From: Azoarcus sp. L1K30
GTDB taxonomy: Bacteria > Pseudomonadota > Gammaproteobacteria > Burkholderiales > Rhodocyclaceae
DNA length: 64,000 bases
NCBI RefSeq assembly: GCF_018122735.1
Contig: NZ_JAGRRD010000001.1
Location: forward strand, 4,894,533 to 4,958,532
Reading direction: 5' to 3'
Of the stretch, positions 49,738 to 63,778 are shown piece after piece. Every line of letters begins with the position of its first letter. Position 1 is the stretch's first letter. The notes under the pieces are model-generated. The model did no database searches. It worked only from the letters and a program-made list of their open reading frames with translations, and was not told the origin of the DNA. The position numbers were made by a program, and so were the translations under genes.

Positions 49738-51447
49738 ATGCTCGTCAAAGCCGGCTCGCGTCGCGGCCCCAATCGTCCGCCTCTTCCTGAATCCGCCCGC
49801 GCGGCGGCACAGGCAGCGCTTGCCGGCGAGACGCCGCGCCGCGACCGCCTGATCGAATATCTGCACCGCCTGCAGGACGCCCACGGTGCGCTGTTCGCCG
49901 ATCACCTCGCCGCACTGGCAGAGGCGATGAAGCTGGCGCAGGCCGAGGTGTATGAAGTCGCGACCTTCTATCACCACTTCGATGTCGTGGCCGACGGCGA
50001 GGCCGCGCCGCCCCTGCTCACCGTGCGCGTATGCGATTCCCTCACTTGCGCCATGCACGGCGGTGTCGAACTGGCCACGGGGCTCCAGGGCCGGCTCGGG
50101 GCCGATGTCCGCGTGCAGCGCGTGCCCTGCGTCGGGCGTTGCGACTGCGCGCCGGTGGCCGTAGTGGGGCAGAACCCGGTGGTGCAGGCCAACGCCGACA
50201 AGGTTGCGGCGGCGGTGGATGCGAATGACCGCGTCGAGCCCGCGCCCGACATCATCGATTTCGAAGCTTACCGGGCCGCGGGTGGCTATCGGCTGTACGA
50301 GTCGGTCTGCAGTGGCGAGCATGGAGCCGAAGAGATCCTCGCCGTACTCGACACCGCCATCCTGCGTGGACTGGGCGGTGCGGGTTTTCCAGCTGCGCGC
50401 AAGTGGCGCACGGTGATGGCGCAGCCGGCGCCGCGCAACATGGCGGTCAACATCGACGAGGGCGAACCCGGCACCTTCAAGGACCGCCACTACCTCGGCC
50501 GCGACCCGCACCGTTTCATCGAAGGCATGCTGATTGCCGCGCGTGTGGTCGGCATCGCCGCGATCTGGATCTACATCCGCGACGAGTACCCGGCCCTGCG
50601 TCAGATGCTCAATGCCGAACTCGACAAGGTGCGCGCAGCCTGGCCCGAACTGCCGCCGATCGAGGTGCGCCGCGGCGCCGGCGCCTACATTTGCGGCGAA
50701 GAGTCGGCGATGATCGAATCCATCGAAGGCAAGCGCGGCATGCCACGCCTGCGTCCGCCCTATGTCGCGGAGGTTGGCCTGTTTGGGCGGCCCACGCTGG
50801 TGCACAACCCGGAAACCCTGTGGTGGGTGCGCGACATCGTCGACACCAGCCTGGTGCAGGGCTATGACTGGCTGGAAAAGCGTGGTCGCAACGGTCGCCA
50901 GGGCCTGCGCAGCTTCTCGGTCAGCGGGCGGGTGGCCAAGCCCGGGGTGATCGTTACCGATGCCGGCATCACCGTGCGCCAGCTCATCGACGAACACTGC
51001 GGCGGCATGTTGCAGGGGCACGAACTCTATGGCTACTTTCCCGGCGGTGCCTCGGGCGGCATGCTGCCGGCGAGCCTGGCCGACGTACCGCTCGACTTCG
51101 ACACCCTCGCGCCCTACGGCTGCTTCATCGGCTCGGCCGCCATCGTCGTGTTCTCCCAGCACGACAAGGCACGCGTGCTGGCCGAGAACGCGATGCACTT
51201 TTTCGCTCATGAATCCTGTGGTCAATGCACGCCCTGCCGCGTCGGCACGGCCAAGGCTGCCGGCCTGATGGCGGCACCCGAATGGAATGCGCCGCTGCTC
51301 GACGAACTCGGCAGTGCGATGATGGACGCCTCGATCTGCGGCCTCGGCCAGGCCGCGCCCAACCCGGTGCGCTCGGTGCTGCGCTACTTCCCGCACGAGG
51401 TCGGCGCCACGCCATCTGATTTTCGCGCGGAGGAGGGCGCAGCATGA
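49738..51447 (+). CDS. NAD-dependent formate dehydrogenase diaphorase subunit, NuoE-NuoF fusion (FdsG+FdsB)
   Basis: Protein of 569 aa. Residues ~1-165 are a NuoE/FdsG-like domain with 2Fe-2S cysteines in VCDSLTCAMHG and VPCVGRCDCAP. The rest is NuoF/FdsB: RGLGGAGFPAARKW and NIDEGEPGTFKDRHYLG (FMN/NAD sites), AYICGEESAMIESIEGKRG, an SLBB region, and the 4Fe-4S motif ESCGQCTPCRVGTAKA. The two are separate subunits in most soluble formate dehydrogenases. It passes electrons from the catalytic subunit to NAD+. The stop overlaps the next start (ATGA). AAGGGA precedes ATG 49738. Confidence 0.9.
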   Translation: MLVKAGSRRGPNRPPLPESARAAAQAALAGETPRRDRLIEYLHRLQDAHGALFADHLAALAEAMKLAQAEVYEVATFYHHFDVVADGEAAPPLLTVRVCDSLTCAMHGGVELATGLQGRLGADVRVQRVPCVGRCDCAPVAVVGQNPVVQANADKVAAAVDANDRVEPAPDIIDFEAYRAAGGYRLYESVCSGEHGAEEILAVLDTAILRGLGGAGFPAARKWRTVMAQPAPRNMAVNIDEGEPGTFKDRHYLGRDPHRFIEGMLIAARVVGIAAIWIYIRDEYPALRQMLNAELDKVRAAWPELPPIEVRRGAGAYICGEESAMIESIEGKRGMPRLRPPYVAEVGLFGRPTLVHNPETLWWVRDIVDTSLVQGYDWLEKRGRNGRQGLRSFSVSGRVAKPGVIVTDAGITVRQLIDEHCGGMLQGHELYGYFPGGASGGMLPASLADVPLDFDTLAPYGCFIGSAAIVVFSQHDKARVLAENAMHFFAHESCGQCTPCRVGTAKAAGLMAAPEWNAPLLDELGSAMMDASICGLGQAAPNPVRSVLRYFPHEVGATPSDFRAEEGAA

Positions 51448-54233
51448 CGACCCTCACCACCGACACCATCGCCTTCGAACTCGACGGCAAGACCATCGAC
51501 GCCGAGCCGGGCGAAACCATTCTGCTCGCCGCCCGCCGCGCCGGCGTCGACATCCCGCATCTGTGCTACACGGACGGCCTGCGTGCCGACGGCAACTGCC
51601 GCGCCTGCGTGGTCGAGATCGACGGCGAGCGCGTGCTCGCCCCGTCGTGCTGTCGTGCGCCCAAGCCCGGCATGAAGGTCCGGGCCGCAAGCGAGCGCGC
51701 CCGCGCCTCGCAGCGCATGGTGCTCGAACTGCTGCGTGCTGATGTCGCACCCGAAAGCGAGAAGACCGACTCCGAGCTCGCCTATTGGTGCGACCAGCTC
51801 GGCGTCGGCGCCAGTCGCTTCGCGCCACGCCAGCAGCCTGCGACCGACACCAGCCACCCCGGCATTGCGGTGAACCTCGCCGCCTGCATCCAGTGCAATC
51901 GCTGCGTGCGTGCCTGTCGCGAAGAGCAGGTCAATGACGTCATCGGCTACGCCCACCGTGGCGAAGCCTCGAAGATCGTGTTCGATCTCGACGTGAGCAT
52001 GGGCAGCTCCACCTGTGTCGGCTGTGGCGAATGCGTGCAGGCCTGTCCGACCGGTGCGCTGCTGCCGGCCACGGTCGGCGCCATTGCTGCTGCAACGGAG
52101 CGTGTTGCCGAGGTGAAGCCCCCGCGCTTCGTCCCCACGCGCAAGGTCGATTCGCTGTGCCCCTTCTGTGGTGTCGGCTGCCAGCTCACCTATCACGTGG
52201 CCGGCGAGGGCGCCGCACAGAAGATCGTCTTCGCCGAAGGCCGCAACGGCCCGGCCAACGCCGGTCGCCTGTGCGTCAAGGGCCGCTACGGTTTCACCTA
52301 CAGCCGCAACCGCGAGCGCCTCACCGTGCCGCTGATCCGCAAGCCCGGCATCCCCAAGGGGGTGAATCTCGATCCGGCCAACCCGCTCGCCGCCTTCCGC
52401 GAAGCCACGTGGGAAGAGGCGCTCGACTTCGCCGCCAGCGGGCTCGCCCGCATCAAGCGCGAGCACGGCCCGCAGGCGCTGGCCGGATTCGGCTCGGCCA
52501 AGGGCAGCAACGAGGAGGCCTACCTGTTCCAGAAGCTGGTGCGCACCGGCTTCGGCACGCACAACGTTGACCACTGCACCCGCTTGTGCCACGCCTCATC
52601 GGTGGCGGCGCTGCTCGAAGGCATCGGCTCCGGCGCGGTGTCCAACCCGGTGCGCGATGTCGAGTTTGCCGACCTGATGATCGTCATCGGTGCCAACCCG
52701 GCGGCCAATCACCCGGTGGCGGCAAGCTTCATCAAGAACGCCAGCGAGCGCGGATCGAAGCTGGTGATGATGGACCCGCGCCAGACCCCGCTCGCGCGAC
52801 ACGCCTGGCGCACGCTGCAGTTCCGCCCCGACGCCGACGTCGCGCTGCTACTGTCGATGGCCTGTGTGATCATCGAAGAAGGACTCACCGATCCGGCCTT
52901 CATCGCTGCTCGCACCGAAGGCTTCGATGCCTTCCGCGACGCCGCATTGCAGTACCCGCCAGAGCGCATGGCGCCGATTACCGGCATCGACGCCGACACC
53001 GTGCGCGAAGTCGCCCGCGCCTACGCCCGCGGCCCCAACAGCATCATCTTCTGGGGCATGGGGGTGTCGCAGCACACCCACGGCACCGACAATGTGCGCT
53101 GCCTGATCGCACTGGCGCTGATGACTGGCCAGATCGGCCGCCCCGGCACCGGACTGCATCCGCTGCGCGGGCAGAACAATGTGCAGGGCGCGTCCGACGC
53201 CGGCCTCATCCCGATGATGTTCCCCGACTACCAGCGCGTGGCAGAGCCCGGCGTGCGCGCGCGTTTCGAGGCGCTGTGGGAGACGACGCTGCCCTCCGAG
53301 CCCGGCCTGACCGTGGTCGAGATCATGGATGCCGCCGCCGCCGGGCGCATCCGAGGCATGTATATCGAAGGCGAAAACCCGGCGATGTCCGACCCCGACC
53401 TCGAGCACGCCCGTGCCGCGCTCGCCGGGCTCGAGCATCTGGTGGTGCAGGACATTTTCCTTACCGAAACCGCGATGCTTGCCGACGTCGTGCTGCCCGC
53501 TTCCAGCCTGTACGAGAAGACCGGCAGCTTCACCAACACCGACCGCCTGGTGCAACTGTCGCAGCCGGTACTGCCGCTGCCCGGCCAGGCGCGTCAGGAC
53601 TGGTGGATCATCCAGCAGATCGCGCAGCGCATGGGGTTGGCCTGGGATTACGCCGGCCCGGCCGGCATCTTCGCCGAGCTCACCCGCGCCATGCCCAGCT
53701 ATGCCGGCATCACCTGGGCCGCGCTCGAAGGCGAGGGCGCCGTGGTGGCACCTAAAGTAGCGGTGGATGTCCCGTCGCAGCCGGTGCTGTTCCAGTCCGA
53801 CTTCCCCACCCCGAACGGCCTCGGCCGCTTCGTCCCGGTCACGCCGCTGCCCGCGGCCGAGCTGCCGGATGCCGATTTTCCGCTGGTGCTCATCACCGGG
53901 CGCGTACTCGAGCACTGGCACACCGGCAGCATGACCCGCCGCGCCGATGTGCTCGACGCGCTCGATCCGCAGCCGTGGTGCGGCATGCATCCGGATGACA
54001 TGACGAACGCAGGCCTCGCGCATGGGGACCGGGTGGTGCTCGAAACCCGTCGCGGGCACATCGAACTGGAAGCCCGTGCCGACGAAGGCGTCCAGCCCGG
54101 TTCGGTGTTCATGGCCTTCTGCTACGTCGAGGCCGCCGCCAACCTGCTCACCCAGCCCGCCCTCGACCCCTTCGGCAAGATTCCCGAGTTCAAATATTGC
54201 GCGTTGCGGGTGAGGCAGGCTTGTATGCACTGA
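51444..54233 (+). CDS. NAD-dependent formate dehydrogenase catalytic (molybdopterin) subunit
   Basis: Molybdo-iron-sulphur enzyme of 929 aa. Clusters in order: 2Fe-2S (CYTDGLRADGNCRACVVE...SCC), two 4Fe-4S ferredoxin motifs (CIQCNRCVRACREEQ; CVGCGECVQACPTGA), then the 4Fe-4S of the Mo domain (LCPFCGVGCQ...GRLCVKG). The active-site region is VDHCTRLCHASSVAALLEG, with Cys (codon tgc, not TGA) as Mo ligand next to the conserved His. GQNNVQGASDAGLIPMMFPDYQ and the C-terminal VLITGRVLEHWHTGSMTRR bind the pterin guanines. Oxidises formate to CO2; BoxC releases formate, so the two steps link. The FdsC and FdsD accessory genes usual in fds operons are not seen. Confidence 0.92.
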   Translation: MTTLTTDTIAFELDGKTIDAEPGETILLAARRAGVDIPHLCYTDGLRADGNCRACVVEIDGERVLAPSCCRAPKPGMKVRAASERARASQRMVLELLRADVAPESEKTDSELAYWCDQLGVGASRFAPRQQPATDTSHPGIAVNLAACIQCNRCVRACREEQVNDVIGYAHRGEASKIVFDLDVSMGSSTCVGCGECVQACPTGALLPATVGAIAAATERVAEVKPPRFVPTRKVDSLCPFCGVGCQLTYHVAGEGAAQKIVFAEGRNGPANAGRLCVKGRYGFTYSRNRERLTVPLIRKPGIPKGVNLDPANPLAAFREATWEEALDFAASGLARIKREHGPQALAGFGSAKGSNEEAYLFQKLVRTGFGTHNVDHCTRLCHASSVAALLEGIGSGAVSNPVRDVEFADLMIVIGANPAANHPVAASFIKNASERGSKLVMMDPRQTPLARHAWRTLQFRPDADVALLLSMACVIIEEGLTDPAFIAARTEGFDAFRDAALQYPPERMAPITGIDADTVREVARAYARGPNSIIFWGMGVSQHTHGTDNVRCLIALALMTGQIGRPGTGLHPLRGQNNVQGASDAGLIPMMFPDYQRVAEPGVRARFEALWETTLPSEPGLTVVEIMDAAAAGRIRGMYIEGENPAMSDPDLEHARAALAGLEHLVVQDIFLTETAMLADVVLPASSLYEKTGSFTNTDRLVQLSQPVLPLPGQARQDWWIIQQIAQRMGLAWDYAGPAGIFAELTRAMPSYAGITWAALEGEGAVVAPKVAVDVPSQPVLFQSDFPTPNGLGRFVPVTPLPAAELPDADFPLVLITGRVLEHWHTGSMTRRADVLDALDPQPWCGMHPDDMTNAGLAHGDRVVLETRRGHIELEARADEGVQPGSVFMAFCYVEAAANLLTQPALDPFGKIPEFKYCALRVRQACMH

Positions 54234-54565
54234 ATTAATCAACTTGATTTGTCAATCCACTATTTTCCGAGGAGAGTGTAAAACCAGGTCAAGAGTGTGA
54301 TTTTTGTCACACATGGCATTGAACAATGGCGACGTCGTGAGGATGGGAATTGAAGCGCCTGCCTTCAGCGGCTATAAAACAGGTATTCATCGGCGTTCGA
54401 CGCGATCTTAGAAATGCGCTGATGCCGATGCAGAACAACAGGAGGAGCGGAGCGGGTTCTCCCACTGGCACTGCGGCACGGAGATGTCTTCATCTGTGGC
54501 CACGGGGCGTCGTTGGCCACGAACTCCCCGATCGCATGGATTTCACCCCGAGGGGGCGTCAGCGC
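54234..54565. other. Regulatory region before the sigma-54-type regulator
   Basis: 332 bases between the formate dehydrogenase and regulator coding starts. It holds aatcaa-c-ttgatt (54237-54249) and the CRP-like box at 54295-54312. The frame of the regulator stays open back to 54350, but the extra residues are not conserved-looking. Confidence 0.45.
54295..54312. promoter_or_regulatory. CRP/Vfr-type binding site
   Basis: gtgtga-tttttg-tcacac: perfect match to the TGTGA-N6-TCACA consensus of CRP-family regulators. It is about 255 bases before the chosen regulator start (ATG 54566), or 40-130 bases before alternative starts, and 60 bases after the formate dehydrogenase stop. Confidence 0.6.
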
Positions 54566-55897
54566 ATGCTAGGTCGTAAGGGATTATTGCTTGATCGGAC
54601 TGGTGAAACAGGTAAGTCGCTCGAAGGGTTGAAGCTGTCTGGCTGGGATTTCCAGGTCACGACGTCGCTTGAGCGCGCGCGCAAGGTGCTTGGCAACGGC
54701 GAAACACTGGTCGGCCTGGTGGTGTTCGATGCGGTCGATTCATGGCCGCTGCGCGATCTCGAGTCCATGCTCTCGCGTCATGAGGTCGAATGGATCGCGG
54801 TGCTGCCGCGTGCTTTGCTCGATGACCCGACGCTGGCGCCGGTGTTGCGGCGCAATTTCTACGATTTCCATACATTGCCGCTCGATCGCGAGCGAATGCT
54901 GATCACGCTCGGGCATGCGCACGGCAAGGCCAGCCTGTGCCCGGGTGTGCCGCGTCACGAAGAGGGTGACGGGCGATTCGGCATGACCGGGCGCAGTGCA
55001 AAGATGCTGCACCTGTACCGTCAGATCGAGAAGATTATCACCGTGGATGCACCGGTGCTGATCGGCGGCGAATCCGGCACCGGCAAGGAACTCGTCGCGC
55101 GCGCAGTGCATGGGCATTCCGCTCGTTCGCAGGGGCCGTTCATCGAGATGAATTGCGGGGCCATTCCCGCCAACCTGATCCATTCCGAGCTCTTCGGCTA
55201 TGAGCGCGGTGCCTTCACCGGTGCGCATCAGCGCACCATCGGGCATATCGAGGCCGCCAATGGCGGCGTGCTCTTTCTCGACGAGATCGGCGACCTGCCG
55301 CTCGACCTCCAGGCCAGCCTGCTCCGCTTTCTTCAGGAGAAGACCATCGTGCGTGTCGGCGGTACCGAACGCCTGCGCATGAATGTGCGGGTGATTGCCG
55401 CGACCCATGTCGATCTCAAGCGGGCGGTGGAGCAGGGGCGGTTCCGCGAGGACCTGTATTACCGCCTCAACGTGCTCCATCTGGTGGTGCCGGCCCTGCG
55501 CGAACGCAGGGACGACATCGAATTGCTGGCCCAGATGATCTACGGCAAGAACCAGGATCAGCGCAGTCCGCAGGTGCGGGGCTTCAGTGCCGAGGCCTAC
55601 CAGGCGATGACGGCCTACGACTGGCCGGGCAATGTGCGCGAGCTGATCAATCGGGTCCAGCACGCCATGATCATGACCGAGAACCGCTTCATCAGTGCCG
55701 CCGATCTCGGCTTGCCGGCGGTCGGGGCGCATGAGACCACGCCGACGCTGGACGAGGTCAGGACGACGGTCGAGCGCGAAATGATCGAGTCCAGCCTCAA
55801 GCGTTACCAGAACAACGTATCGGCGACCGCACGCCAGCTCGGTGTGTCTCGCGTCACCCTGTATCGCATGATCGACCGTCTGAAGATCGTTTTGTAG
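54566..55897 (+). CDS. Sigma-54-interacting transcriptional activator, VpsR-like, probable regulator of the Fap-like locus
   Basis: Regulator of 443 aa: a degenerate receiver-like N-domain (~1-130, without the phosphoacceptor Asp pattern), an AAA+ domain (~150-370) with Walker A GGESGTGKE, the sigma-54 contact loop GAFTGA, Walker B GGVLFLDEIGDLPLDLQ and R-finger region REDLYYRLNVLHL, then a Fis-type HTH (SATARQLGVSRVTLYRMIDRL). Close relatives (VpsR type) control biofilm polysaccharides. The start is uncertain: ATG 54566 is best placed behind GAGGGGG; upstream ATGs 54425 or 54536 exist. 44 bases before the outer-membrane protein gene. Confidence 0.88.
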   Translation: MLGRKGLLLDRTGETGKSLEGLKLSGWDFQVTTSLERARKVLGNGETLVGLVVFDAVDSWPLRDLESMLSRHEVEWIAVLPRALLDDPTLAPVLRRNFYDFHTLPLDRERMLITLGHAHGKASLCPGVPRHEEGDGRFGMTGRSAKMLHLYRQIEKIITVDAPVLIGGESGTGKELVARAVHGHSARSQGPFIEMNCGAIPANLIHSELFGYERGAFTGAHQRTIGHIEAANGGVLFLDEIGDLPLDLQASLLRFLQEKTIVRVGGTERLRMNVRVIAATHVDLKRAVEQGRFREDLYYRLNVLHLVVPALRERRDDIELLAQMIYGKNQDQRSPQVRGFSAEAYQAMTAYDWPGNVRELINRVQHAMIMTENRFISAADLGLPAVGAHETTPTLDEVRTTVEREMIESSLKRYQNNVSATARQLGVSRVTLYRMIDRLKIVL

Positions 55898-55941
55898 CGC
55901 TTGGCGGCATCGTGCGCCGGCCAACTCTGGGAGGAGAGTGT

Positions 55942-57234
55942 ATGAAGTTCAAGCCGACACGGATTGTGCAGGCCCTGGGGCAGGGCTTTGCCGGATGCGT
56001 CATGCTTGCTGCGCCGGGTCTGGCGATGGCGGCCGATGCCGCCGATCCCGACATGGCGCAGATGCGACAGCAGATCGACGCGCAGAATGCACAGATCGAC
56101 GTCCTGAAAGCCAACCTTGCCCGACAGGAGGCTGCGCTAGCCGAACTGAAGCGCTCGCTCGGAATCAGCGAGGTCCGCGGCCGTGGCGTCGACGCCCCGG
56201 CCGGCGGCAAGGAGCAGCCGGTCGTCGTGGCGCAGCAGGGTAACCCGCAGAAGCCGGTCGGACAGGCGCCGGATCCGGCGCGCGACACCCGGTCGCGCGA
56301 GATGGCGACGATTTTCGAGACCCCCGGGGTGCTCACCGCGCCCGGCAAGTACGTGCTCGAGCCCTCGCTGCAATACGCCTACTCGTCGAGCAACCGCATC
56401 GCGCTGGTCGGCTATACCGTCATCCCCGCCATCCTCATCGGCCTGATCGACGTGCGCGAGGTCAAGCGCAACACCTTTACCGCCGCGCTGACGGTGCGCC
56501 GCGGGATTACCAACCGCTTCGAACTCGAGGCGAAAGTCCCCTGGGTCTATCGCAGCGACACCAGCATCAGCCGCGAGATCGCCGAAGGCAGCTCGGTCGA
56601 CAGCGTCTTCGATGCCGATGGCAGCAACCTTGGCGATGTCGAGATCACCGGGCGTTATCAGCTCAATGACGGCGGCGGCGACAGCCCTTACTACATCGCC
56701 TCGCTGCGCCTGAAAACCCGCACCGGCAAGGACCCTTTCGAAGTCCGCACCAACTACACCCTGCCCGGCGGGCGAGGCACCGGCCTGCAAAGCGAACTGC
56801 CCACCGGCTCCGGCTTCTACACCCTCACGCCGGGCCTGACGGTGTTGATGCCGTCGGACCCGGCGGTCTTCTTCGGCGGTGTCAGCTATCAACATAGCTT
56901 CAAACGCGACAACGTGAAGGCCAATACAGATGGTGGTGACGTGCTCATCGGCGAGGTGGCACCGGGCGGGGTGATCGGATTCAACTTCGGCATGGGCCTC
57001 GCGCTCAACGACCGCTCCTCTTTCAGCATCGGCTACGACCATCAGTCGGTGGGCAAGGTCAAGATCAACGGCAAGACCGCGGCCGGCTCGGTGACGGTGC
57101 AACTGGGCTCGCTGCTGCTGGGCTACTCGCACCGGCTGAACTCGGGCAACACCGTCAATCTCTCGCTCGGCGTCGGTGTCACCAGCGATACGCCGGACCT
57201 GCAACTGACCCTGCGCATGCCGATGACGCTATAG
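55942..57234 (+). CDS. FapF-like outer-membrane beta-barrel protein with N-terminal coiled coil
   Basis: Exported protein of 430 aa. Signal peptide ends at GLAMA. Residues ~40-80 form a coiled coil (DMAQMRQQIDAQNAQIDVLK / ANLARQEAALAELKRSLG), then a linker rich in Q, P and G, then from ~130 a beta-barrel of alternating amphipathic strands (YVLEPSLQYAYSS, FTAALTVRRGITNRFELEAKVPWVY, SFSIGYDHQS, LLLGYSHRL) ending in LQLTLRMPMTL. This is the plan and the length of FapF, the trimeric secretin-like channel of the Pseudomonas functional amyloid. Similarity is by architecture; sequence identity was not computed. GGGAGGAGAG precedes ATG. Confidence 0.7.
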   Translation: MKFKPTRIVQALGQGFAGCVMLAAPGLAMAADAADPDMAQMRQQIDAQNAQIDVLKANLARQEAALAELKRSLGISEVRGRGVDAPAGGKEQPVVVAQQGNPQKPVGQAPDPARDTRSREMATIFETPGVLTAPGKYVLEPSLQYAYSSSNRIALVGYTVIPAILIGLIDVREVKRNTFTAALTVRRGITNRFELEAKVPWVYRSDTSISREIAEGSSVDSVFDADGSNLGDVEITGRYQLNDGGGDSPYYIASLRLKTRTGKDPFEVRTNYTLPGGRGTGLQSELPTGSGFYTLTPGLTVLMPSDPAVFFGGVSYQHSFKRDNVKANTDGGDVLIGEVAPGGVIGFNFGMGLALNDRSSFSIGYDHQSVGKVKINGKTAAGSVTVQLGSLLLGYSHRLNSGNTVNLSLGVGVTSDTPDLQLTLRMPMTL

Positions 57235-57237
57235 GTG

Positions 57238-57687
57238 CGGAGGGGATGGGTTTGAGGTGTCGCCGACATAACCCTTCCCCATCCTGTCCGGAGGGCCGGC
57301 TTTGCACAGCCGCCCCGCTCTGGCGGCGTGAAGCGATGCTTCACGAAACCCCGCCTCCGCCCCCTTAAAGGGGAAGGGACCTGCTAATAGGGTTCTGGCG
57401 GCACCGTTTGGCTCCCTCCCCTTCAAGGGGGTGAGAGCGGGGTTTCAGCGAGCATCGCTCGCTGCCGCCCGAACGACAGCGCGTCTCTGCGCTGGCTACC
57501 GGGCTGAGGTGGGGATGGGTTTCGAGGACTCGCCGCCGAACCCATCCCCATCCTGTCCTTCCCCTTGAAGGGGAAGGGACCTGCTAATAAGGTTCTGGCG
57601 GCACAGTTTGGCCCCTCCCCCTTCAAGGGGGAGGTTGGGAGGGGGATGGGTTTCAGCTGCACTTGAAAGCTTCGAAACCCATCGGCG
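57238..57687. repeat. Mosaic intergenic repeat array, copy E
   Basis: Fills the 491-base gap between two convergent genes of the Fap-like locus. It contains the 85-base module at 57270-57354 (also twice in copy D), ttaaaggggaagggacctgc (57365-), cggggtttcagcgagcatcg (57438-), gaacgacagcgcgtctctgc (57470-), gaacccatccccatcctgtc (57538-), ttccccttgaaggggaaggg (57558-) and cctcccccttcaagggggag (57614-). Order of modules resembles copy D, which suggests duplication of a whole array. Confidence 0.88.
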
Positions 57688-57725
57688 ATGCCCGTCTTCA
57701 TGCATTCTTCGATGCGCCATTTCCC

Positions 57726-58826
57726 TCAGCGCACCAGCGACTGGATCATCGTGTCCCGGATGGAGTGGTTCATCTGCACGCCGCGCAGCATCTGGACGCT
57801 GTTGACCGAAGCACTGATCGTCGTCACGGCCTGGATCTTCTGGTTGTCCAGGGAGTTTTGGATGACGGTGGCGAGGGCGGCATCGTTGAGCCCGTTGGCG
57901 ACGAAGGCATTGTTCGGTCCATTCTGAATCACTGCCAGCGTCGTACCGTCCGGCATACCCTTGCCATGGATGTCGCCGAGGTTGGCCAGCGTGACGTTGG
58001 TCACGCTGTTGAGTTCGCCGTTGATATAGACCAGACGTTCGATACCGAAGGATACGCGCAGACCGGAGGGGGTTTCGAAACCGCCGCGCAGGCTGTCGAG
58101 CGTGCTGTCCGTGACCGGGGGCGCGTCCGCGAGCAGCACGGGCATGCGCCGGAGAACGGACGGTGGCAGTGGATGCTCGGCGGCCGCATCGATTGCGGCA
58201 ATCTGTGCGGCCTCCCTTGTTTCGATCAACGCCTCCAGGCCGGACGGCGCGCTCGCAACGTCAGCCGCTGCCGGCGTCATGGATGGGGCAATCGTGGCGT
58301 AGACCGGGGGGCTGATCGCAACCGGTGCTGCGGTCTTCAGCACTTCCGTGATGCTCAGAATCTTCGCGTCCGCAACGGGGGCCGGCGAATCCTTGCGCGC
58401 TGCGAGGGCCGCGGGCGTGTCGCCATAGCTGTCGAGAATTTCACGCGGACTGCGAATCGTGGCTTCGGCGACCTCTGCGAGGACGGCGATGGGTTTGACC
58501 ACGGCTTCCTCGACGGGGGCCATGCCCTCCTGCGCAACGTCCTTGCGGCCACAGGTCTCGGTGTAGTCCAGCGGCCAGTCGGCCAGTGCCAGCAATTCCG
58601 CCGGCAGCACCTCGTGCTTCGAGCAATCGGCCGGATGGAAACCCTGGCGGCTGGCGACGTCGGCTTCGGTGCCCATGACGCTGGACATGCCGTCACCCGC
58701 GGTCTCGGACGACACCACCTCGCCATCGACCAATGCCTGTGCAATGTTCGCACCCATCAGCACCGTCACCGTAGTGGTGGTCGTGGCCAGGGCAGCGATC
58801 AGGGCGAAGGTGCGTGGGCTCGTCAT
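57726..58826 (-). CDS. Secreted protein of the Fap-like locus (FapE-position)
   Basis: Exported protein of 366 aa, family not recognised. A signal peptide (MTSPRTFALIAAL...) is followed by a long Ala/Pro-rich region with two cysteines (ADCSKHE, ETCGRKD). At 242-249 comes LDSLRGGF, then a C-terminal domain GLRVSFGIERLVYINGELNS with VIQNGPNN, VIQNSLDNQK and a last DTMIQSLVR. LDSxRGG and QNS-type motifs recur in the small protein at 59551-59901. ATG 58826 fits the signal peptide. It follows the C39 gene by 10 bases on the same strand and is probably exported by or for the same system. Confidence 0.6.
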   Translation of the reverse strand: MTSPRTFALIAALATTTTTVTVLMGANIAQALVDGEVVSSETAGDGMSSVMGTEADVASRQGFHPADCSKHEVLPAELLALADWPLDYTETCGRKDVAQEGMAPVEEAVVKPIAVLAEVAEATIRSPREILDSYGDTPAALAARKDSPAPVADAKILSITEVLKTAAPVAISPPVYATIAPSMTPAAADVASAPSGLEALIETREAAQIAAIDAAAEHPLPPSVLRRMPVLLADAPPVTDSTLDSLRGGFETPSGLRVSFGIERLVYINGELNSVTNVTLANLGDIHGKGMPDGTTLAVIQNGPNNAFVANGLNDAALATVIQNSLDNQKIQAVTTISASVNSVQMLRGVQMNHSIRDTMIQSLVR

Positions 58827-58836
58827 GGCGCGTGCC

Positions 58837-59544
58837 TCAATAGTCCCATGCCCCACGGCGGAGCAACTGCACATCCGCCACGTTGTTCTCGAGGCCGCGT
58901 GCAATCGGTGCGCGCGGCAGGACGCGCCAGTCGGCCACGTCGTTGAAGCGGGCTACACCCGCCTTGTTCCTCACCACGAGCAGGATGCCGTTGATCCAGA
59001 TCTTCTCGAACGCCTTGCGTTCCATGGCCCGGGTGCCCATCGCCGGATCGCCGATCAGCACCTTGCCGTAGCGCAAGCCCTTGATCACGACGAAGTGGGC
59101 GTAGCCGTTCTCCTGGATCAGGGCGATGGCCGGCACCGACGCCATCACGAGCTGGTCCAGCGATGCCTCGACACCGTCGGTGCGAAAACCCAGATGGTCG
59201 AGATAACGCTTCATGTCCAGCATGGAGAAGCCTTCACGGCGGATCTTCGCCTGGTCGCCATGCTCGAACATGACCTCGAACACTTTCGATTCGGTTACCG
59301 CATAACCGTAATGGTGGGTCAGCAGCGTCGCCACTGCGGCCGAACCGCAGCTGAAGTCATATTGCTGGCGCATCGTGGACACGAAGCGAGCCTCCCGCAG
59401 GCTTACCGTCGGCACCGTCAGGTTCCCGCCCAGGGGCGAGAGCAGCCGGAGCTGGTCGGAGAAGGCCGCCGTGGCGACAAACAGGCATACCATCGCCACG
59501 ACGATCGTCAAGCCGGAAGGTGACACGATGTGTTTTTGCATCAT
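58837..59544 (-). CDS. C39-family peptidase of the Fap-like locus (FapD-like)
   Basis: Secreted or membrane-anchored cysteine peptidase of 235 aa. After an N-terminal hydrophobic segment (LTIVVAMVCLFVATAAF), the catalytic Cys is in RQQYDFSCGSAAVATLLTHHYG, His in NGYAHFVVIKGL, and Asp in VLIGDPAMGTR: a complete C39 triad. There is no ABC transporter domain, so it is the stand-alone type found as FapD in amyloid operons. C39 enzymes cut after Gly-Gly; two neighbours carry LDSxRGG, a possible target. It is 6 bases after the small protein gene and 10 before the next. Confidence 0.82.
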   Translation of the reverse strand: MMQKHIVSPSGLTIVVAMVCLFVATAAFSDQLRLLSPLGGNLTVPTVSLREARFVSTMRQQYDFSCGSAAVATLLTHHYGYAVTESKVFEVMFEHGDQAKIRREGFSMLDMKRYLDHLGFRTDGVEASLDQLVMASVPAIALIQENGYAHFVVIKGLRYGKVLIGDPAMGTRAMERKAFEKIWINGILLVVRNKAGVARFNDVADWRVLPRAPIARGLENNVADVQLLRRGAWDY

Positions 59545-59550
59545 GCGCCC

Positions 59551-59901
59551 TTACTGCACCTCTACATTGAGGATGACCGAATTCTGGATCAACACACCGT
59601 TGCCGGAGTTCTGGATGAACATCGGCATGCCCGATGCGCCGGCGAGGGCGCCTTCCGACACGATGTTGTAACCCGTTACGACGTTATGTGCCTCCACTTC
59701 ACTTACGCTTCCAACGGCGATGATTTCGCTCAGATGCTGGTCCGATCCGCCTCGCTGACTGTCAAGCACATTCGCATCAAGGGGCGCACCGCCAAACTCG
59801 ACGGTGTCCGGGAGGGCCTCTTCTGCATGAACCGAGGCCGGCGTACTGCACGTTGCTGCCAGCGCAATGCCCAGGGCGATCATGGACAGATGGGGTCTCA
59901 T
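59551..59901 (-). CDS. Small secreted protein with LDSQRGG and QNSG motifs
   Basis: Exported protein of 116 aa, family not recognised. Signal peptide up to about residue 26 (PASVHA). LDSQRGG lies at 46-52. The C-terminus FIQNSGNGVLIQNSVILNVE matches the end of the large Gly-rich protein (QNSGIGSLVQQSANVQANL), with eight identities in 19 positions. It could be a minor amyloid subunit or a nucleator. ATG 59901 has AAGGAGG 8 bases upstream. Same strand as the Gly-rich gene, 73 bases downstream of it. Confidence 0.65.
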   Translation of the reverse strand: MRPHLSMIALGIALAATCSTPASVHAEEALPDTVEFGGAPLDANVLDSQRGGSDQHLSEIIAVGSVSEVEAHNVVTGYNIVSEGALAGASGMPMFIQNSGNGVLIQNSVILNVEVQ

Positions 59902-59974
59902 GGTCAGCCTCCTTATCCTGCTGTGCTGCATGGACACCGGGCGTCATGCGGACCGCCCGGCATCGTCTTCAGGC

Positions 59975-61645
59975 TTACCTGAGGGTCAGGTTGGCCTGTA
60001 CGTTGGCACTTTGCTGCACCAGCGATCCGATCCCGCTGTTCTGGGAGTTGAGGATGATGCCGGCACCATTGGTGAAGCTGCCGCTGATGGCGTTGGACAT
60101 GTCGAAGTGTCCCGCATCCACGGTCACCGTACCGCCAGCACCGCCCATGCCGCCGCTGCCACCCTGGCCGGAGCCACCGGTCGCCGCACCGGCCGTCACC
60201 GTGCCGCCAGCGCCGCCTGCACCGCCTTGGCCGCCCTGGCCGGAGCCGCCTGCGCCGCCCGATCCGCCGGTCGCTGCGCCACCGCTTGCGCTGCCGCTCG
60301 TCGCCGCGCCACCCACACCGCCTTCGCCTGCCGTGTTGGAGGCCATGCCGCCGGCACCGCCGCTGGACGAGCTGTTACCCGATGTCGCCGAAGCGCTCGA
60401 GGTTGCTGCGCCACCGGTCGAGGTGTTGGTGCCACCGGTTGCCGAGCCCGCGCCCGCTGTCGCCGTTGCACCGCCCGAGGTCGCTGCGCCACTGGTGCCG
60501 GTGCCGGCGCCGGAGCTGGCGGTCGAGGTCGCCGAGCTGGGGCCGTTACTTGCGGTCGATGCACCCGAGGTGCCACCGGCCGAGGATGCCGCACCGCCGG
60601 TGCCGCCTGCGCCGCTGTTCGCATTGGCGGTGTTCGTCACAGTAGCCGGGTCATCGCCCCTGCCGCGCGTACGCGCCGTGCCGTCGGCCGCTTTCGCCCA
60701 TGCATTGCCGGAGTCGGCAGAGCCGCCATCCGCACCGCTGCCACCTGCCTTGCTGCCCGCCCAGGCGTCGCCATTGCTGGCCTTGCCGTAGGCCTTGGCA
60801 TCGCCCGAGGTGCCATAGGCGTCGCCCGAGGTCGCGTAATCCGAAGATGTGGCGCTGCCGCCCTTGGCCATCGACCCGCCAGCCTTGCCCATGGCATTGC
60901 CGCCGGTTGCGCCGTCGGATGCGCTAGCGCTACCCGAGGACGAAGTCGCATCGCCGCCACTGCCCGCCCTTGCGTTCCTGGCGTTGCCGCCATCGCCGGC
61001 GGTGCCGCCCTTCACATAACCGCTGTCGGCATTGCCACCGGTCGCACTGCCGCCGGATGAGCCGTCGCCGCCGTTGCCGCCGTAGGCCTTGCCACCATCG
61101 GCACCATTGGCGCCATAGGCCTTGCCGCCGTAGGCGCTGCCGCCGTCACCACCGTAAGCCTTGCCGCCGTTACCGCCATTGCCGCTGTTCATGTTGTGGG
61201 CGCTGTTACCCAGATCATGCACCTGGATCTTGGTGACCATGCCCTCGAGCTTGGTCATTGCAACGGCCGAGGTCTTGTTGAACGAGTCGGTCATCGTCGA
61301 CGTTGCGGTACTGCCGTTGAGCGCAGCGGCGTTGCCATAATCCTTGGCCATCGCCATGCCGCTGCTGCTGTGGTCGGAGTTGTCGCTGTTGTCCGAATTG
61401 TTGCTGTTGTCGGAGTTATTGCTGTTGTCCGAGTTGTTGCTGGCGTCCGAATACGAACTGCTGTCCCACGTTGCCGTTGAATACTCATTGGCTTGCGGGC
61501 CCGTACCGCCCTGTGTCGAGTTGGCAGTTGCGTTCTGCGTTGCCGTATTGGTTGCTTCGTTGAGGTTATTGGTCGGGTTTGCCATTGCCTGCGAGGCAAA
61601 TCCGAACGCGAGCGCGATGGCACCCGAGAGCAGACTGAGCTTCAT
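59975..61645 (-). CDS. Gly/Ala/Ser/Asn-rich secreted protein, candidate amyloid subunit
   Basis: Exported protein of 556 aa with extreme composition. Signal peptide ends at ASQAMA. Then an Asn/Thr region, an Asn-Ser-Asp repeat (SDNSNNSDNSNNSDNSD), a short mixed segment (ALNGSTATSTMTDSFNKTSA), a Gly/Tyr/Lys region (GGKAYGGDGGSAYGGKAYGA), long Gly/Ala/Ser/Thr stretches, and a conserved-looking C-terminus ending QNSGIGSLVQQSANVQANL. No canonical FapC repeats and no C-terminal CxC were found. GGAGGAAAATC precedes ATG 61645. First gene of the minus-strand run, so probably the most expressed. Amyloid function is inferred from context and composition. Confidence 0.6.
   Translation of the reverse strand: MKLSLLSGAIALAFGFASQAMANPTNNLNEATNTATQNATANSTQGGTGPQANEYSTATWDSSSYSDASNNSDNSNNSDNSNNSDNSDNSDHSSSGMAMAKDYGNAAALNGSTATSTMTDSFNKTSAVAMTKLEGMVTKIQVHDLGNSAHNMNSGNGGNGGKAYGGDGGSAYGGKAYGANGADGGKAYGGNGGDGSSGGSATGGNADSGYVKGGTAGDGGNARNARAGSGGDATSSSGSASASDGATGGNAMGKAGGSMAKGGSATSSDYATSGDAYGTSGDAKAYGKASNGDAWAGSKAGGSGADGGSADSGNAWAKAADGTARTRGRGDDPATVTNTANANSGAGGTGGAASSAGGTSGASTASNGPSSATSTASSGAGTGTSGAATSGGATATAGAGSATGGTNTSTGGAATSSASATSGNSSSSGGAGGMASNTAGEGGVGGAATSGSASGGAATGGSGGAGGSGQGGQGGAGGAGGTVTAGAATGGSGQGGSGGMGGAGGTVTVDAGHFDMSNAISGSFTNGAGIILNSQNSGIGSLVQQSANVQANLTLR
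61389..61442. repeat. 18-bp tandem repeat in the Gly-rich gene
   Basis: Three 18-base units (ttgtccgaattgttgctg and close variants) at 61389-61406, 61407-61424 and 61425-61442, flanked by degenerate half units. They encode the Asn-Ser-Asp hexapeptide repeats, and could change in number by slippage. Confidence 0.8.
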
Positions 61646-61972
61646 GATTTTCCTCCACTGTGGCGAGTGAGGGCAGGGCAAGATGTCCCACCTCGAGGAC
61701 GACGGTGGCAACTCCCGTGCCATCGGGCTGAAAGCGCCGCAGGAAGGGGCGTTCGGCGTTTGAACGGAATGCAGGTTGCGCGCCTGGCGGCGTGAACTGT
61801 CAAGGTTTGTTACAGGTCGGCCGGGGGTGAGCCCCCATCTGCTATGCCGAAGAGGCTACGTCGCCGCGCCAGGACGACGCTATGACGTGCGTTGAATCAT
61901 CGGAACGCGAGGTGTATCAGATGTGAAACGTCCGGGAAGGCAGCGGCCATCGCGTGCCTTCCCGACCGCTCA
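61646..61972. other. Region upstream of the candidate amyloid gene
   Basis: 327 bases. On the minus strand TTGACA (61803-61798) is the best -35 candidate for the Gly-rich gene, but no good -10 lies 16-18 bases on. ggggg-tgag-ccccc (61823-61836) is a small hairpin. No sigma-54 -24/-12 element (TGGCAC-N5-TTGC) was recognised, although a sigma-54-type activator gene is in the locus. Confidence 0.4.
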
Positions 61973-63778
61973 TCAAACCCGCGTCAGTGGCCAGAACAGC
62001 GGAATCAGCACGCTGGCGCTGAGCCACACGACGATGTTCAGCGGGACGCCCAGGCGGGCAAAATCGGTGAAGCGGTAGTTGCCGGCGTTGTACACCAGGG
62101 TGTTCGTCTGGTAGCCGATCGGGGTGGCAAAGCTGGCGCTGGCGGCGAACATCACACCCACCACGAAAGGGCGCGGGTCGACGCCGATGTGCTCGGCGAT
62201 GCCGATCACGATCGGTGTGAACAGCACCGCCACGGCATTGTTGCTGATGAATTCGGTCGCAATCGAGGTGATCAGGACGATCAGCGACAGCATGGCCCAC
62301 GGCGGCAGATCGCCGCCGATGCTCACCAGACTGCCCGCGAGCAGTTTGTCGAGACCGGAATCACGCATCGCGATACTCATTGCCAGCATGCCGAAGATCA
62401 GCACCAGGATGGGCCATTCGATCGATTTATAGGCCTCGTCCGCGCGCAGGCATCCGGTCAGCACTACGATGACCGCGCCGATGATCGCCAGCCCCTCGAT
62501 CGGCATCACGTCGAAGGCGGCCAGTGCCATCACCCCGACAATGGTCGCCAGCGCGATCGGCGCCTTGGCGTGATTGTTCACCGGTGCCTTGCCATCGGTG
62601 ATCGCGAACAGGTCACCGTTCTCGCAGAAACGCTTGATCTGGGCCGGGGTGCCCTCCACCAGCAACACGTCGCCGAACTGCAGCTGGAAATCGTCGCCGA
62701 TGTCGGCAATCGAGGCGTTCTTGCGATGTACCGCGATCAGGTGGATACCGTAGCGCGCGGCAAGGTCGAGATCGCGAATCGGCCGCAACACGTAGCGCGA
62801 AGTCTGGCCGACGATCGCCTCCACCATTACCACGCCCCGGCGGCGCAGGGTTTCGAGGTCGTGCGGATCGGTATTCTGGCTCTGCAGACCGATCAGATCG
62901 GTGCTGCTGCGCAGATCCATCATCGCGCTGCTGCGGCTATGCACCACCACGCGGTCACCCACCTGCAGTGTGGTGTCGGGCGAGGGGGCCGAAATCTCGT
63001 CGTCGCCGCGAAACAGGTTCAGCACCTTGATCACGCCATTGGACAGGCGCGCTTCCTTCAGCGTGCGTCCGGCCAGGCGCGAGCCCTCGGGCACGAACAG
63101 TTCGGTCATGAACAGGCGGTCGCCGCTGCCGGTGAATTGCTGGGTCAGGGTCTCGCGCACCGGCAGCAGACGGGGGGCGAACCACAACATCAACGCGCAG
63201 CCGAGCAGGGCCAGCACGATCGCCGCCGGGCTGATCTCGAACATGCGGAACGGCGTCAGGCCATGGCTGCGGGCCACGCCGTCGACGAGGATGTTGGTCG
63301 AGGTGCCGACCATGGTGATCATGCCGCCCAGAATGGTGGCGTACGACAGCGGAATCAGCAGGCGTGACGGCGCCACGCTGTAACGGCCGGCCATCGCGAT
63401 CACCGCCGGAATCATCACCATGACCACCGGGGTGTTGTTGATGAAGGGCGACACGAACAGGCCCACCGCGAGCATGGCCAGCAGCAGCCGGCGCTCGCTG
63501 TTGCCGGCCATCGTCCCCAGCCACTCGCCCAGGCGGTCCACGCAGCCGGTCTTGCTCAGCGCACCGCTGATGATGAACAGGCAGGCAATCGTGATCGGCG
63601 CACTGTTGCTGAACACGCCGAGCACCTGCTTCGGCGAGAGCAGACCGAGCGCCATCAGCAAACCGACCGCACTCATCACCGCTACGTCGGGCTTGATCCA
63701 TTCGCGCACGAAGCTGGCGAACAGCGCAATCAGCACGAAGCCGACAATCAGGGCGTGGTATGTCTCGGGGACCAGCAT
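61973..63778 (-). CDS. SLC13/DASS-type permease with two TrkA-C domains
   Basis: Inner-membrane transporter of 601 aa. An N-terminal half with about six helices (TIACLFIISGALSKTG, FINNTPVVMVMIPAVIAMA, ATILGGMITMVGTSTNILVDG) is followed by two cytoplasmic RCK_C/TrkA-C domains (~210-375: FVPEGSRLAGRTLKEARLSN...LQVGDRVVVHS, then FQLQFGDVLLVEGTPAQIKRF), and a second half with FISNNAVAVLFTPIVIGIAE and FATPIGYQTNTLVYNAGNYRF. NNTP and NNA are the SLC13 substrate/sodium sites. Members carry sulphate, dicarboxylates or similar anions; substrate undecided. GAAGG precedes ATG 63778. Confidence 0.85.
   Translation of the reverse strand: MLVPETYHALIVGFVLIALFASFVREWIKPDVAVMSAVGLLMALGLLSPKQVLGVFSNSAPITIACLFIISGALSKTGCVDRLGEWLGTMAGNSERRLLLAMLAVGLFVSPFINNTPVVMVMIPAVIAMAGRYSVAPSRLLIPLSYATILGGMITMVGTSTNILVDGVARSHGLTPFRMFEISPAAIVLALLGCALMLWFAPRLLPVRETLTQQFTGSGDRLFMTELFVPEGSRLAGRTLKEARLSNGVIKVLNLFRGDDEISAPSPDTTLQVGDRVVVHSRSSAMMDLRSSTDLIGLQSQNTDPHDLETLRRRGVVMVEAIVGQTSRYVLRPIRDLDLAARYGIHLIAVHRKNASIADIGDDFQLQFGDVLLVEGTPAQIKRFCENGDLFAITDGKAPVNNHAKAPIALATIVGVMALAAFDVMPIEGLAIIGAVIVVLTGCLRADEAYKSIEWPILVLIFGMLAMSIAMRDSGLDKLLAGSLVSIGGDLPPWAMLSLIVLITSIATEFISNNAVAVLFTPIVIGIAEHIGVDPRPFVVGVMFAASASFATPIGYQTNTLVYNAGNYRFTDFARLGVPLNIVVWLSASVLIPLFWPLTRV

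Follow-up and report, generated by a model that had tools for sequence, protein, structure and literature searches.

Organisation of the locus

We analysed a stretch of 64,000 nucleotides from Azoarcus sp. L1K30 (contig NZ_JAGRRD010000001.1, positions 4,894,533 to 4,958,532; hereafter the window), the terminal part of which holds a compact six-gene cluster related to the Fap amyloid-secretion system of Pseudomonas. In the list of open reading frames (ORFs), two genes lie on the plus strand and encode a sigma-54-dependent activator with a VpsR-type N-terminal domain (54350..55897, with a plausible alternative start at 54566) and a FapF-like outer-membrane barrel (55942..57234, alternative start 55912). 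The other four form a minus-strand block which, read from 61645 downward, encodes a Gly/Ala/Ser/Thr/Asn-rich secreted protein of 556 amino acids (59975..61645; the p582 family), the small protein p128 (59551..59901), a FapD/FilB-like C39 cysteine peptidase with a Sec-type N-terminus (58837..59544), and p392 (57726..58826). Both p128 and p392 combine a Sec-type signal with a conserved double-glycine leader of the kind cut by C39 enzymes, and these leaders, which recur in nearly all of the relatives checked, are the new element described here. In p392 a long variable region separates signal from leader and a FapE-like domain forms the C-terminus, while the mature part of p128 resembles a single Fap repeat.

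The names of the secreted proteins follow the listed ORFs. The 128-residue frame of p128 was listed from a GTG at 59937 and its likely Met is at 59901; the 392-residue frame of p392 was listed from a TTG at 58904, and the Met at 58826 comes after the C39 gene; the Gly-rich protein has 582 residues if read from 61723 and 556 from 61645. The signal peptides of all three were read from the sequence by eye, and none of the three matches a Pfam or NCBIfam family above cut-off. On either side of the cluster lie an NADH/formate-dehydrogenase-type gene pair (49738-54233) and a CitMHS/TrkA-C transporter (61973-63778), which are apparently unrelated to it.

The barrel and the peptidase are kin to FapF and FapD

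The barrel matches the NCBIfam FapF model with E = 1.5e-48 (165.7 bits, curated cut-off 700) and the FilC model with E = 1.5e-17. Its residues 131-438 match the crystal structure of FapF, a 12-stranded secretion barrel (PDB 5o67, E = 1.7e-35), FapF being the only PDB relative at E < 0.1, and a heptad-like stretch can be read N-terminal to the barrel domain. The peptidase contains Pfam Peptidase_C39 (E = 1.3e-24) and no other domain above cut-off in its 235 residues; it matches FapD at E = 1.6e-43 (148.6 bits, curated cut-off 330) and FilB at 5.4e-36, and its best relatives in the PDB are the C39 domains of ATP-binding cassette (ABC) type proteins. The NCBIfam FapF and FapD scores lie below their curated cut-offs and thus indicate kinship, not identity. 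Each of the two models has one match in the host genome, and both matches are at the six-gene cluster. The activator contains Sigma54_activat (E = 1.7e-70) and VpsR (E = 6.2e-11) domains in Pfam and a GAFTGA motif.

A first-pass annotation of this DNA had proposed a divergent Fap-like locus with a gene order unlike that of fap, made up of a sigma-54-type activator, a FapF-like barrel with a coiled coil, a FapD-like C39 peptidase and three secreted proteins, one of them Gly-rich. Those identifications hold, with the activator frame extending further upstream to 54350; the double-glycine leaders of the 128- and 392-residue proteins had been overlooked. Grouping of the barrel with unrelated porins, which the annotation had named as grounds for doubt, was not seen, since the barrel groups beside FapF.

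In a tree of 73 barrels (a quick method with a midpoint root, the loci of the GTDB scan described below being thinned to every fourth), the window's type (48 rows, support 97), Fap (18 rows, support 99) and Fil (5 rows, support 99) each fell on one side of a branch. Two further barrels were ungrouped and long branches were flagged for several rows. The cluster might also be a normal fap operon modified by drift, which would account for the pore, the protease and the FapE-like protein being shared. We regard this explanation as very improbable: the tree sets the two barrel types apart, the gene order differs, FapA and FapC were not found, and two genomes (G180 and G235) carry both a fap operon and a window-type locus. 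Judged by its genes, the cluster is instead a separate branch related to the Fap system, a conserved sister with uncharacterised substrates.

Conservation and distribution

Relatives were gathered in three sets. In the family sample, a FapD search of 150 genomes from the same family gave matches in 29, at 38 places. Nineteen regions were fetched, the remainder being the window itself and 18 places with open frames of 503-1157 residues. Gene content and order are as in the window in 14 of the 19, where the block of four and the block of two genes are convergent; five of these have a second Gly-rich copy. The others are two true fap operons and three other C39 loci. The phylum sample covered 398 genomes, 40 of which matched, at 51 places. 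The 38 regions fetched cover 40 places, leaving out the window's own place, four that were true-fap-like, three weaker standalone matches and three with frames of 857-1036 residues, and 14 of the 38 (L120-L132 and L134, excluding L133) are of the window's type. p128 was missed by its hidden Markov model (HMM) in L127 and L131, that of L127 being found by eye.

The third set came from a peptidase scan of GTDB genomes, with at least 594 matching stretches; 579 of those listed encode a relative, and the best 80 were kept. Among these 80 loci the peptidase is present in 80, p128 and p392 in 79 each and the barrel in 75; the core of p128, peptidase and p392 occurs in 78, and core plus barrel in 73. 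The Gly-rich protein was counted in 59 loci by an HMM of its C-terminus and in 75 once a regular expression was added, the HMM count being low because low-complexity members were missed; in the five loci with no match (L156, L164, L170, L184 and L219) the C39 gene lies less than 2 kb from the start of the stretch. The core was found in 27 further loci, some from shared genomes; in both groups of loci the barrel and a Gly-rich protein mostly accompany it. The GTDB-scan set partly overlaps the family and phylum samples (the barrels of L148 and L043, for example, are identical), so they are not independent. Hosts in the scan include Aromatoleum, Thauera, Dechloromonas, Variovorax, Polaromonas, Cupriavidus, Paraburkholderia, Ralstonia, Herbaspirillum and Lysobacter. 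Relatives of p128 also come from Halomonas and Sphingomonas, and the close relatives of the window's p128 are Parazoarcus communis and Azoarcus proteins.

Two loci of the phylum sample differ in arrangement. L133 is a degraded copy with a C39 frame of 183 residues, a barrel of 162 and a p128 fragment of 77. L121 (8424-12870) shows a tandem duplication of the p128-C39-p392 block, in which each copy is preceded by a Gly/Asn-rich ORF and the p128 and p392 proteins are the same in both copies.

The locus is therefore kept as a unit, as the synteny comparison proposed in the first-pass annotation was meant to establish, and the suggestion that the system is undescribed is borne out within the searches made: besides the secreted proteins lacking a family above cut-off, the database relatives of p128 have no Pfam domain and their protein-like names are nearly all 'hypothetical protein'. 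In line with this, the published Fap survey, according to its section 6, was filtered on FapBC-repeat hits (PMC12392863), a filter that would probably drop loci of the window's type. A relative of Fap, with core genes found across many Pseudomonadota, is thus widespread in Burkholderiales, Rhodocyclales and other groups, and may be an unstudied matrix component of environmental biofilms.

Double-glycine leaders of p128 and p392

The leader of p128 reads APLDANVLDSQRGG, followed by SDQ (59746..59787, minus strand, RGG codons 59746-59754), and that of p392 reads PPVTDSTLDSLRGG, followed by FET (58080..58121, minus strand, RGG codons 58080-58088). Both have Leu at -7, Arg at -3 and Gly at -2 and -1. 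The double-glycine consensus for C39 enzymes is Leu at -7 with Gly at -2 and -1, and the leaders agree with it in the -7 Leu and the glycine pair. With the window included, and with the 77-residue fragment of L133 dropped from the rows, the motif stands at one register in 29/29 members of the p128 family (24 ending RGG and five ending [RS]GR) and in 30/30 of the p392 family, all ending RGGF. The GTDB-scan loci have RGG in 78 of 79 p128 proteins, the remaining one having RRGA, and in 79/79 p392 proteins; 120 listed p128 proteins from the databases comprise 109 with RGG, ten with RGR and one with no motif. Leu occupies -7 in 145 of 147 distinct leaders, while the invariance of the -3, -2 and -1 columns of the leader matrix arises partly because leaders were gathered by that pattern. 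The pattern was found in 0/28 Gly-rich proteins. An AlphaFold model of p392 places a helix (266-272) directly ahead of the glycine pair (274-275). The distance between Sec-type signal and leader in p392 ranges from fewer than 30 to more than 200 residues (compared in L122, L132, L125, L037 and the window), and in the window's p392 cutting would take off a long pro-region.

The residues C66, H150, D166 and Q60 of the peptidase are invariant in 31/31 window-type peptidases and 19/19 FapD rows. From its active site, its neighbours and the conserved register, the peptidase likely cuts the leaders of p128 and p392, and with its Sec-type N-terminus it would do so in the periplasm. Alternatively, the substrate of the peptidase might be the barrel, whose pore would thereby open or close (an idea also put forward for FapD and FapF), and the leaders of p128 and p392 would serve as docking sites only. 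Passages of PMC5557850 discuss GG/GA motifs in the FapF linker, PMC5135000 mentions a double-glycine motif in FapF, and some GG or GA does occur at residues 61-150 in 23 of 29 window-type barrels, with a loose leader-like match there in ten of the 29. The linker has no conserved GG/GA, however, the best column pair reaching 14% of the 29 rows, as against a motif in every member of the p128 and p392 families, and we think barrel processing improbable.

The leader motif in FapE and Fil proteins

Processing of the leaders by the peptidase gains from a comparison with FapE. In true fap loci FapE carries, soon after the signal region, the motif E-[LM]-x-x-[LMQ]-R-G-[RK]-[YF] in the same register as in p128 and p392, with [RHT]G[RK] in 19/19 and thus Arg or Lys at -1. 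The p392 and FapE profiles align with a score of 39.9 over 33 columns spanning the leader motif, the maximum among 100 column shuffles being 19.4.

Loci were then scanned with the leader matrix, the -1 and -3 columns being blanked, and the ORFs of each locus were ranked. FapE ranks between 1 and 12 in 18 fap loci and first in six; its best window is not the N-terminal motif in four of the 18 (L107, which is among the six firsts, L110, L118 and L119), and L108 has two FapE genes, of which the one scored ranked 10 of 83. The gene beside FilB ranks first of 79-101 ORFs in the four Fil loci scored, and in L136 this leader-like secreted protein is a DUF6160 protein. These FilA-type ranks are post hoc because a motif listing preceded the choice of targets, and the Fil loci are related to one another. 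In the Fil-type locus L139 (9860-14191) several FilA-like genes lie in tandem, and three of four of their products carry ATGQ as a leader-like motif. Three regions (L116:7938-9321, L047:9522-12564 and L049:9447-12075) are further kinds of locus, in which a C39 peptidase lies near a small secreted-type protein whose leader-like motif ends G-R or G-A; L047 and L049 also have a barrel-like protein near the peptidase. In L116 the leader scan placed this protein first of 117 ORFs.

We sought an active-site switch that would separate FapD, with Arg/Lys at -1 in FapE, from the window type, with Gly at -1, and found none. Either the cut falls after the invariant first glycine, or the residue at -1 is tolerated. 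In L120, L121, L122 and L127 a p128 ending GR stands alongside a p392 ending GG, which fits both.

Passages of the literature leave the substrate of FapD unsettled, and the leader motif thus offers a candidate site. FapD was called a likely protease of Fap proteins (PMC3684753, 2013). According to PMC5557850 (2017) it is periplasmic and its active-site Cys is needed for FapC secretion; its target is called unclear, and the Fap proteins are said to have no canonical C39 sites; FapE alone showed complete N-terminal processing, with no peptides in its first ~70 residues. The substrate is described as undetermined in PMC6173800 (2018), which also reports homologues of fapD and fapF lying together in five other phyla, and a 2025 review gives FapE and FapF as the proteins that FapD is "thought to" process (PMC12822426). 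No FapD cleavage site is named in those parts of the open-access literature that were searched for one. Taken together, we lean somewhat towards Fap (FapE at LRG[RK]), Fil (FilA-type proteins at VTGQ) and the window's system (p128 and p392 at RGG) being three branches of one secretion class, of which the window's locus, with two canonical substrates, would be the clearest form and would answer what FapD acts on.

The Gly-rich protein and similarity to the Fap repeat

The 556-residue protein is of low complexity (G 24.1, A 18.0, S 15.6, T 9.7 and N 8.5%). It contains zero cysteine, so that the absence of CxC reported in the first-pass annotation is confirmed. The same annotation saw no FapB/FapC repeats. 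This stands for the Gly-rich protein, in which no repeat was found, and needs amending for the locus, in that the mature p128 family resembles one Fap repeat in profile-profile comparison. Judged against 100 column shuffles, mature p128 scores 24.2 with the Fap repeat (shuffled maximum 15.1), 32.5 with mature p392 (14.4) and 28.8 with the C-terminus of the Gly-rich protein (16.8). The last is a conserved segment, GHFDMSN...SQNSGIGSLVQQSANVQANLTLR, at 59978..60112 on the minus strand. With an HMM built from 116 Fap repeats, FapE reaches E values as good as 1.8e-5, and the Gly-rich protein is not among the matches. No window protein matches the NCBIfam FapB or FapC models at E 1, and a PDB profile search with p128 returned nothing at E 10. 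The AlphaFold model of p128 was too poor and was rejected for use.

Direct repeat matches fail for the Gly-rich C-terminus and for mature p392, so the similarity forms a chain through p128, from which we infer that p128 may be a one-repeat FapB-like protein. The Gly-rich protein is likely the bulk subunit of a fibre or matrix. That the cluster builds surface fibres is a prediction, and a plausible one, from relatedness and composition.

It is also possible, though on balance doubtful, that the system secretes no amyloid, in which case the Gly-rich protein would be a flexible chain of adhesin, matrix or glycoprotein-like character, with p128 and p392 as anchors. The low-complexity composition would suit such a chain, as would a C-terminus that has no direct Fap-repeat match and lies outside the matches of the repeat HMM, and the core of three imperfect repeats known from FapC (PMC12392863, section 6) is absent. 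Against it stand the p128 scores just given, which link the Fap repeat to p128 and p128 to the Gly-rich C-terminus, and a pore and a protease of the amyloid-exporting type.

A candidate sigma-54 promoter ahead of the Gly-rich gene

A sigma-54 (-24/-12) promoter-like site, TGGCACGGGAGTTGCC, lies at 61707..61722 on the minus strand, ~60 bp ahead of the ATG of the Gly-rich gene. Sigma-54-like matches across the window number 31 with 37 expected, which is not above chance, so the case for this site rests on its position and conservation. With at most one mismatch, the promoter core precedes the Gly-rich gene in 13 of 27 relatives, compared with 3.0% of 3000 random segments and only one of 28 p128 genes. 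In the GTDB-scan loci it does so in 41 of 72, compared with 3.1% of 4000 random segments; the 72 regions are the 75 loci with a Gly-rich protein minus three that had no usable upstream stretch, with two candidate-less regions retained, and the sets of 27 and 72 partly overlap. An activator gene is linked in 51 of the 80 GTDB-scan loci, and GAFTGA is intact in 40 of 52 linked activators. Sigma-54 activator genes of this kind also lie near 14 of 16 fetched true fap operons (L102-L112, L115, L118 and L119); none was seen in L113 and L114.

A proposed secretion pathway

We consider it reasonably probable that the cluster combines a FapF-like pore, a predicted periplasmic FapD-like C39 protease and three secreted-type proteins, two of which would have their leaders cut before export into a predicted surface fibre. 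The VpsR-type activator would likely switch on the sigma-54 promoter ahead of the Gly-rich gene. Sec is the predicted route out of the cytoplasm for the secreted proteins, the peptidase and the barrel. The peptidase would then likely recognise the helical leader and cut p128 and the FapE-like p392 at R-G-G or immediately beside it; the sequence does not decide between the first and the second glycine. The barrel would then export the mature proteins together with the Gly-rich protein. Outside the cell, p128 may act as a one-repeat FapB-type nucleator and p392 may play the part of FapE, while the bulk of the fibre would consist of the Gly-rich protein, attached via its conserved C-terminal segment.

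A number of observations weigh against parts of this pathway. C39 enzymes usually require Gly or Ala at -1, and FapE has Arg or Lys there with no conserved active-site switch in FapD. The motif is missing from one database p128 member, P0073. The fifth Fil locus, L135, has no candidate leader protein, the top match of its leader scan being an opposite-strand ORF that overlaps the barrel gene, and the ranks in L047 and L049 are only 14 and 12, which is unconvincing. With the leader removed, the similarity of mature p392 to FapE is marginal (16.6, shuffled maximum 15.8), and the NCBIfam FapE model matches 0/55 p392 members at E 0.1. The AlphaFold models are poor (mean predicted local distance difference test scores of 56.5 for p128 and 58.5 for p392), and a fold search with the p392 model gave no solved structure at E 0.001 or better. 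As regards the fibre, a direct profile match of the Fap repeat to the Gly-rich C-terminus was equalled by 38 of 100 shuffles and to mature p392 by 84 of 100; the Fap-repeat HMM reaches p128 only at E 0.1-9, and the NCBIfam FapB and FapC models match 0/87 p128 members at E 0.1. Seven of the 14 window-type phylum loci (L121-L123, L127, L129, L131 and L132) are missed by the Gly-rich HMM; by eye a similar G/S/N/T/A-rich protein is present in six of them and there is none in L123. Finally, the published mass-spectrometry gap in FapE of ~70 residues fits only loosely a site proposed near residue 40, and a docking paper has FapD modifying FapC (PMC10638192).

If the pathway is right, the leaders would indicate what the Fap protease, whose target has long been sought, acts on. 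The motif keeps a single register in FapE and in two of the three secreted proteins, which reduces the question of the FapD substrate to a point mutation.

Comparison with known systems

Curli (Csg) resembles the proposed system in that a secreted amyloid passes an outer-membrane pore; it differs in its proteins, no Csg domain being found by Pfam in the six window proteins. Peptidase-containing ABC exporters, which handle double-glycine bacteriocin leaders, have the C39 domain and the logic of the leader in common with the window, whereas the window's peptidase has a Sec-type N-terminus and no ABC transporter part.

The Fil system (filABCD..., annotated as a putative pilus system) is closer. 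A C39 peptidase adjoins a related barrel, and in four of five loci a small secreted leader-like protein (FilA-type; DUF6160 in L136) lies beside the peptidase. This small protein is a different one with a motif ending G-Q, however, and a FadL-type neighbour can be read from the sequence; Pfam and NCBIfam give no FilA (DUF6160) or FilD match in the six window proteins, and the window's barrel lies outside the separate Fil group.

Fap differs from the window's system in its substrates and layout. FapA and the multi-repeat FapB and FapC were not found in the window system (NCBIfam gives no FapA match among the six window proteins, and FapA is often lost in Fap); FapB and FapC mostly have three Fap repeats each, compared with one repeat-like match, by profile only, in the window system. 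The leader ends RGG rather than RG[RK], p128 is a second leader-bearing substrate, the Gly-rich protein has a C-terminal segment of its own, the gene arrangements are other than fapABCDEF and the barrels form separate groups. What the two systems share is a FapF-type barrel, a FapD-type C39 peptidase with its catalytic triad and a sigma-54 activator gene nearby; the leader motif of FapE recurs in the same register in p392, a candidate FapE counterpart.

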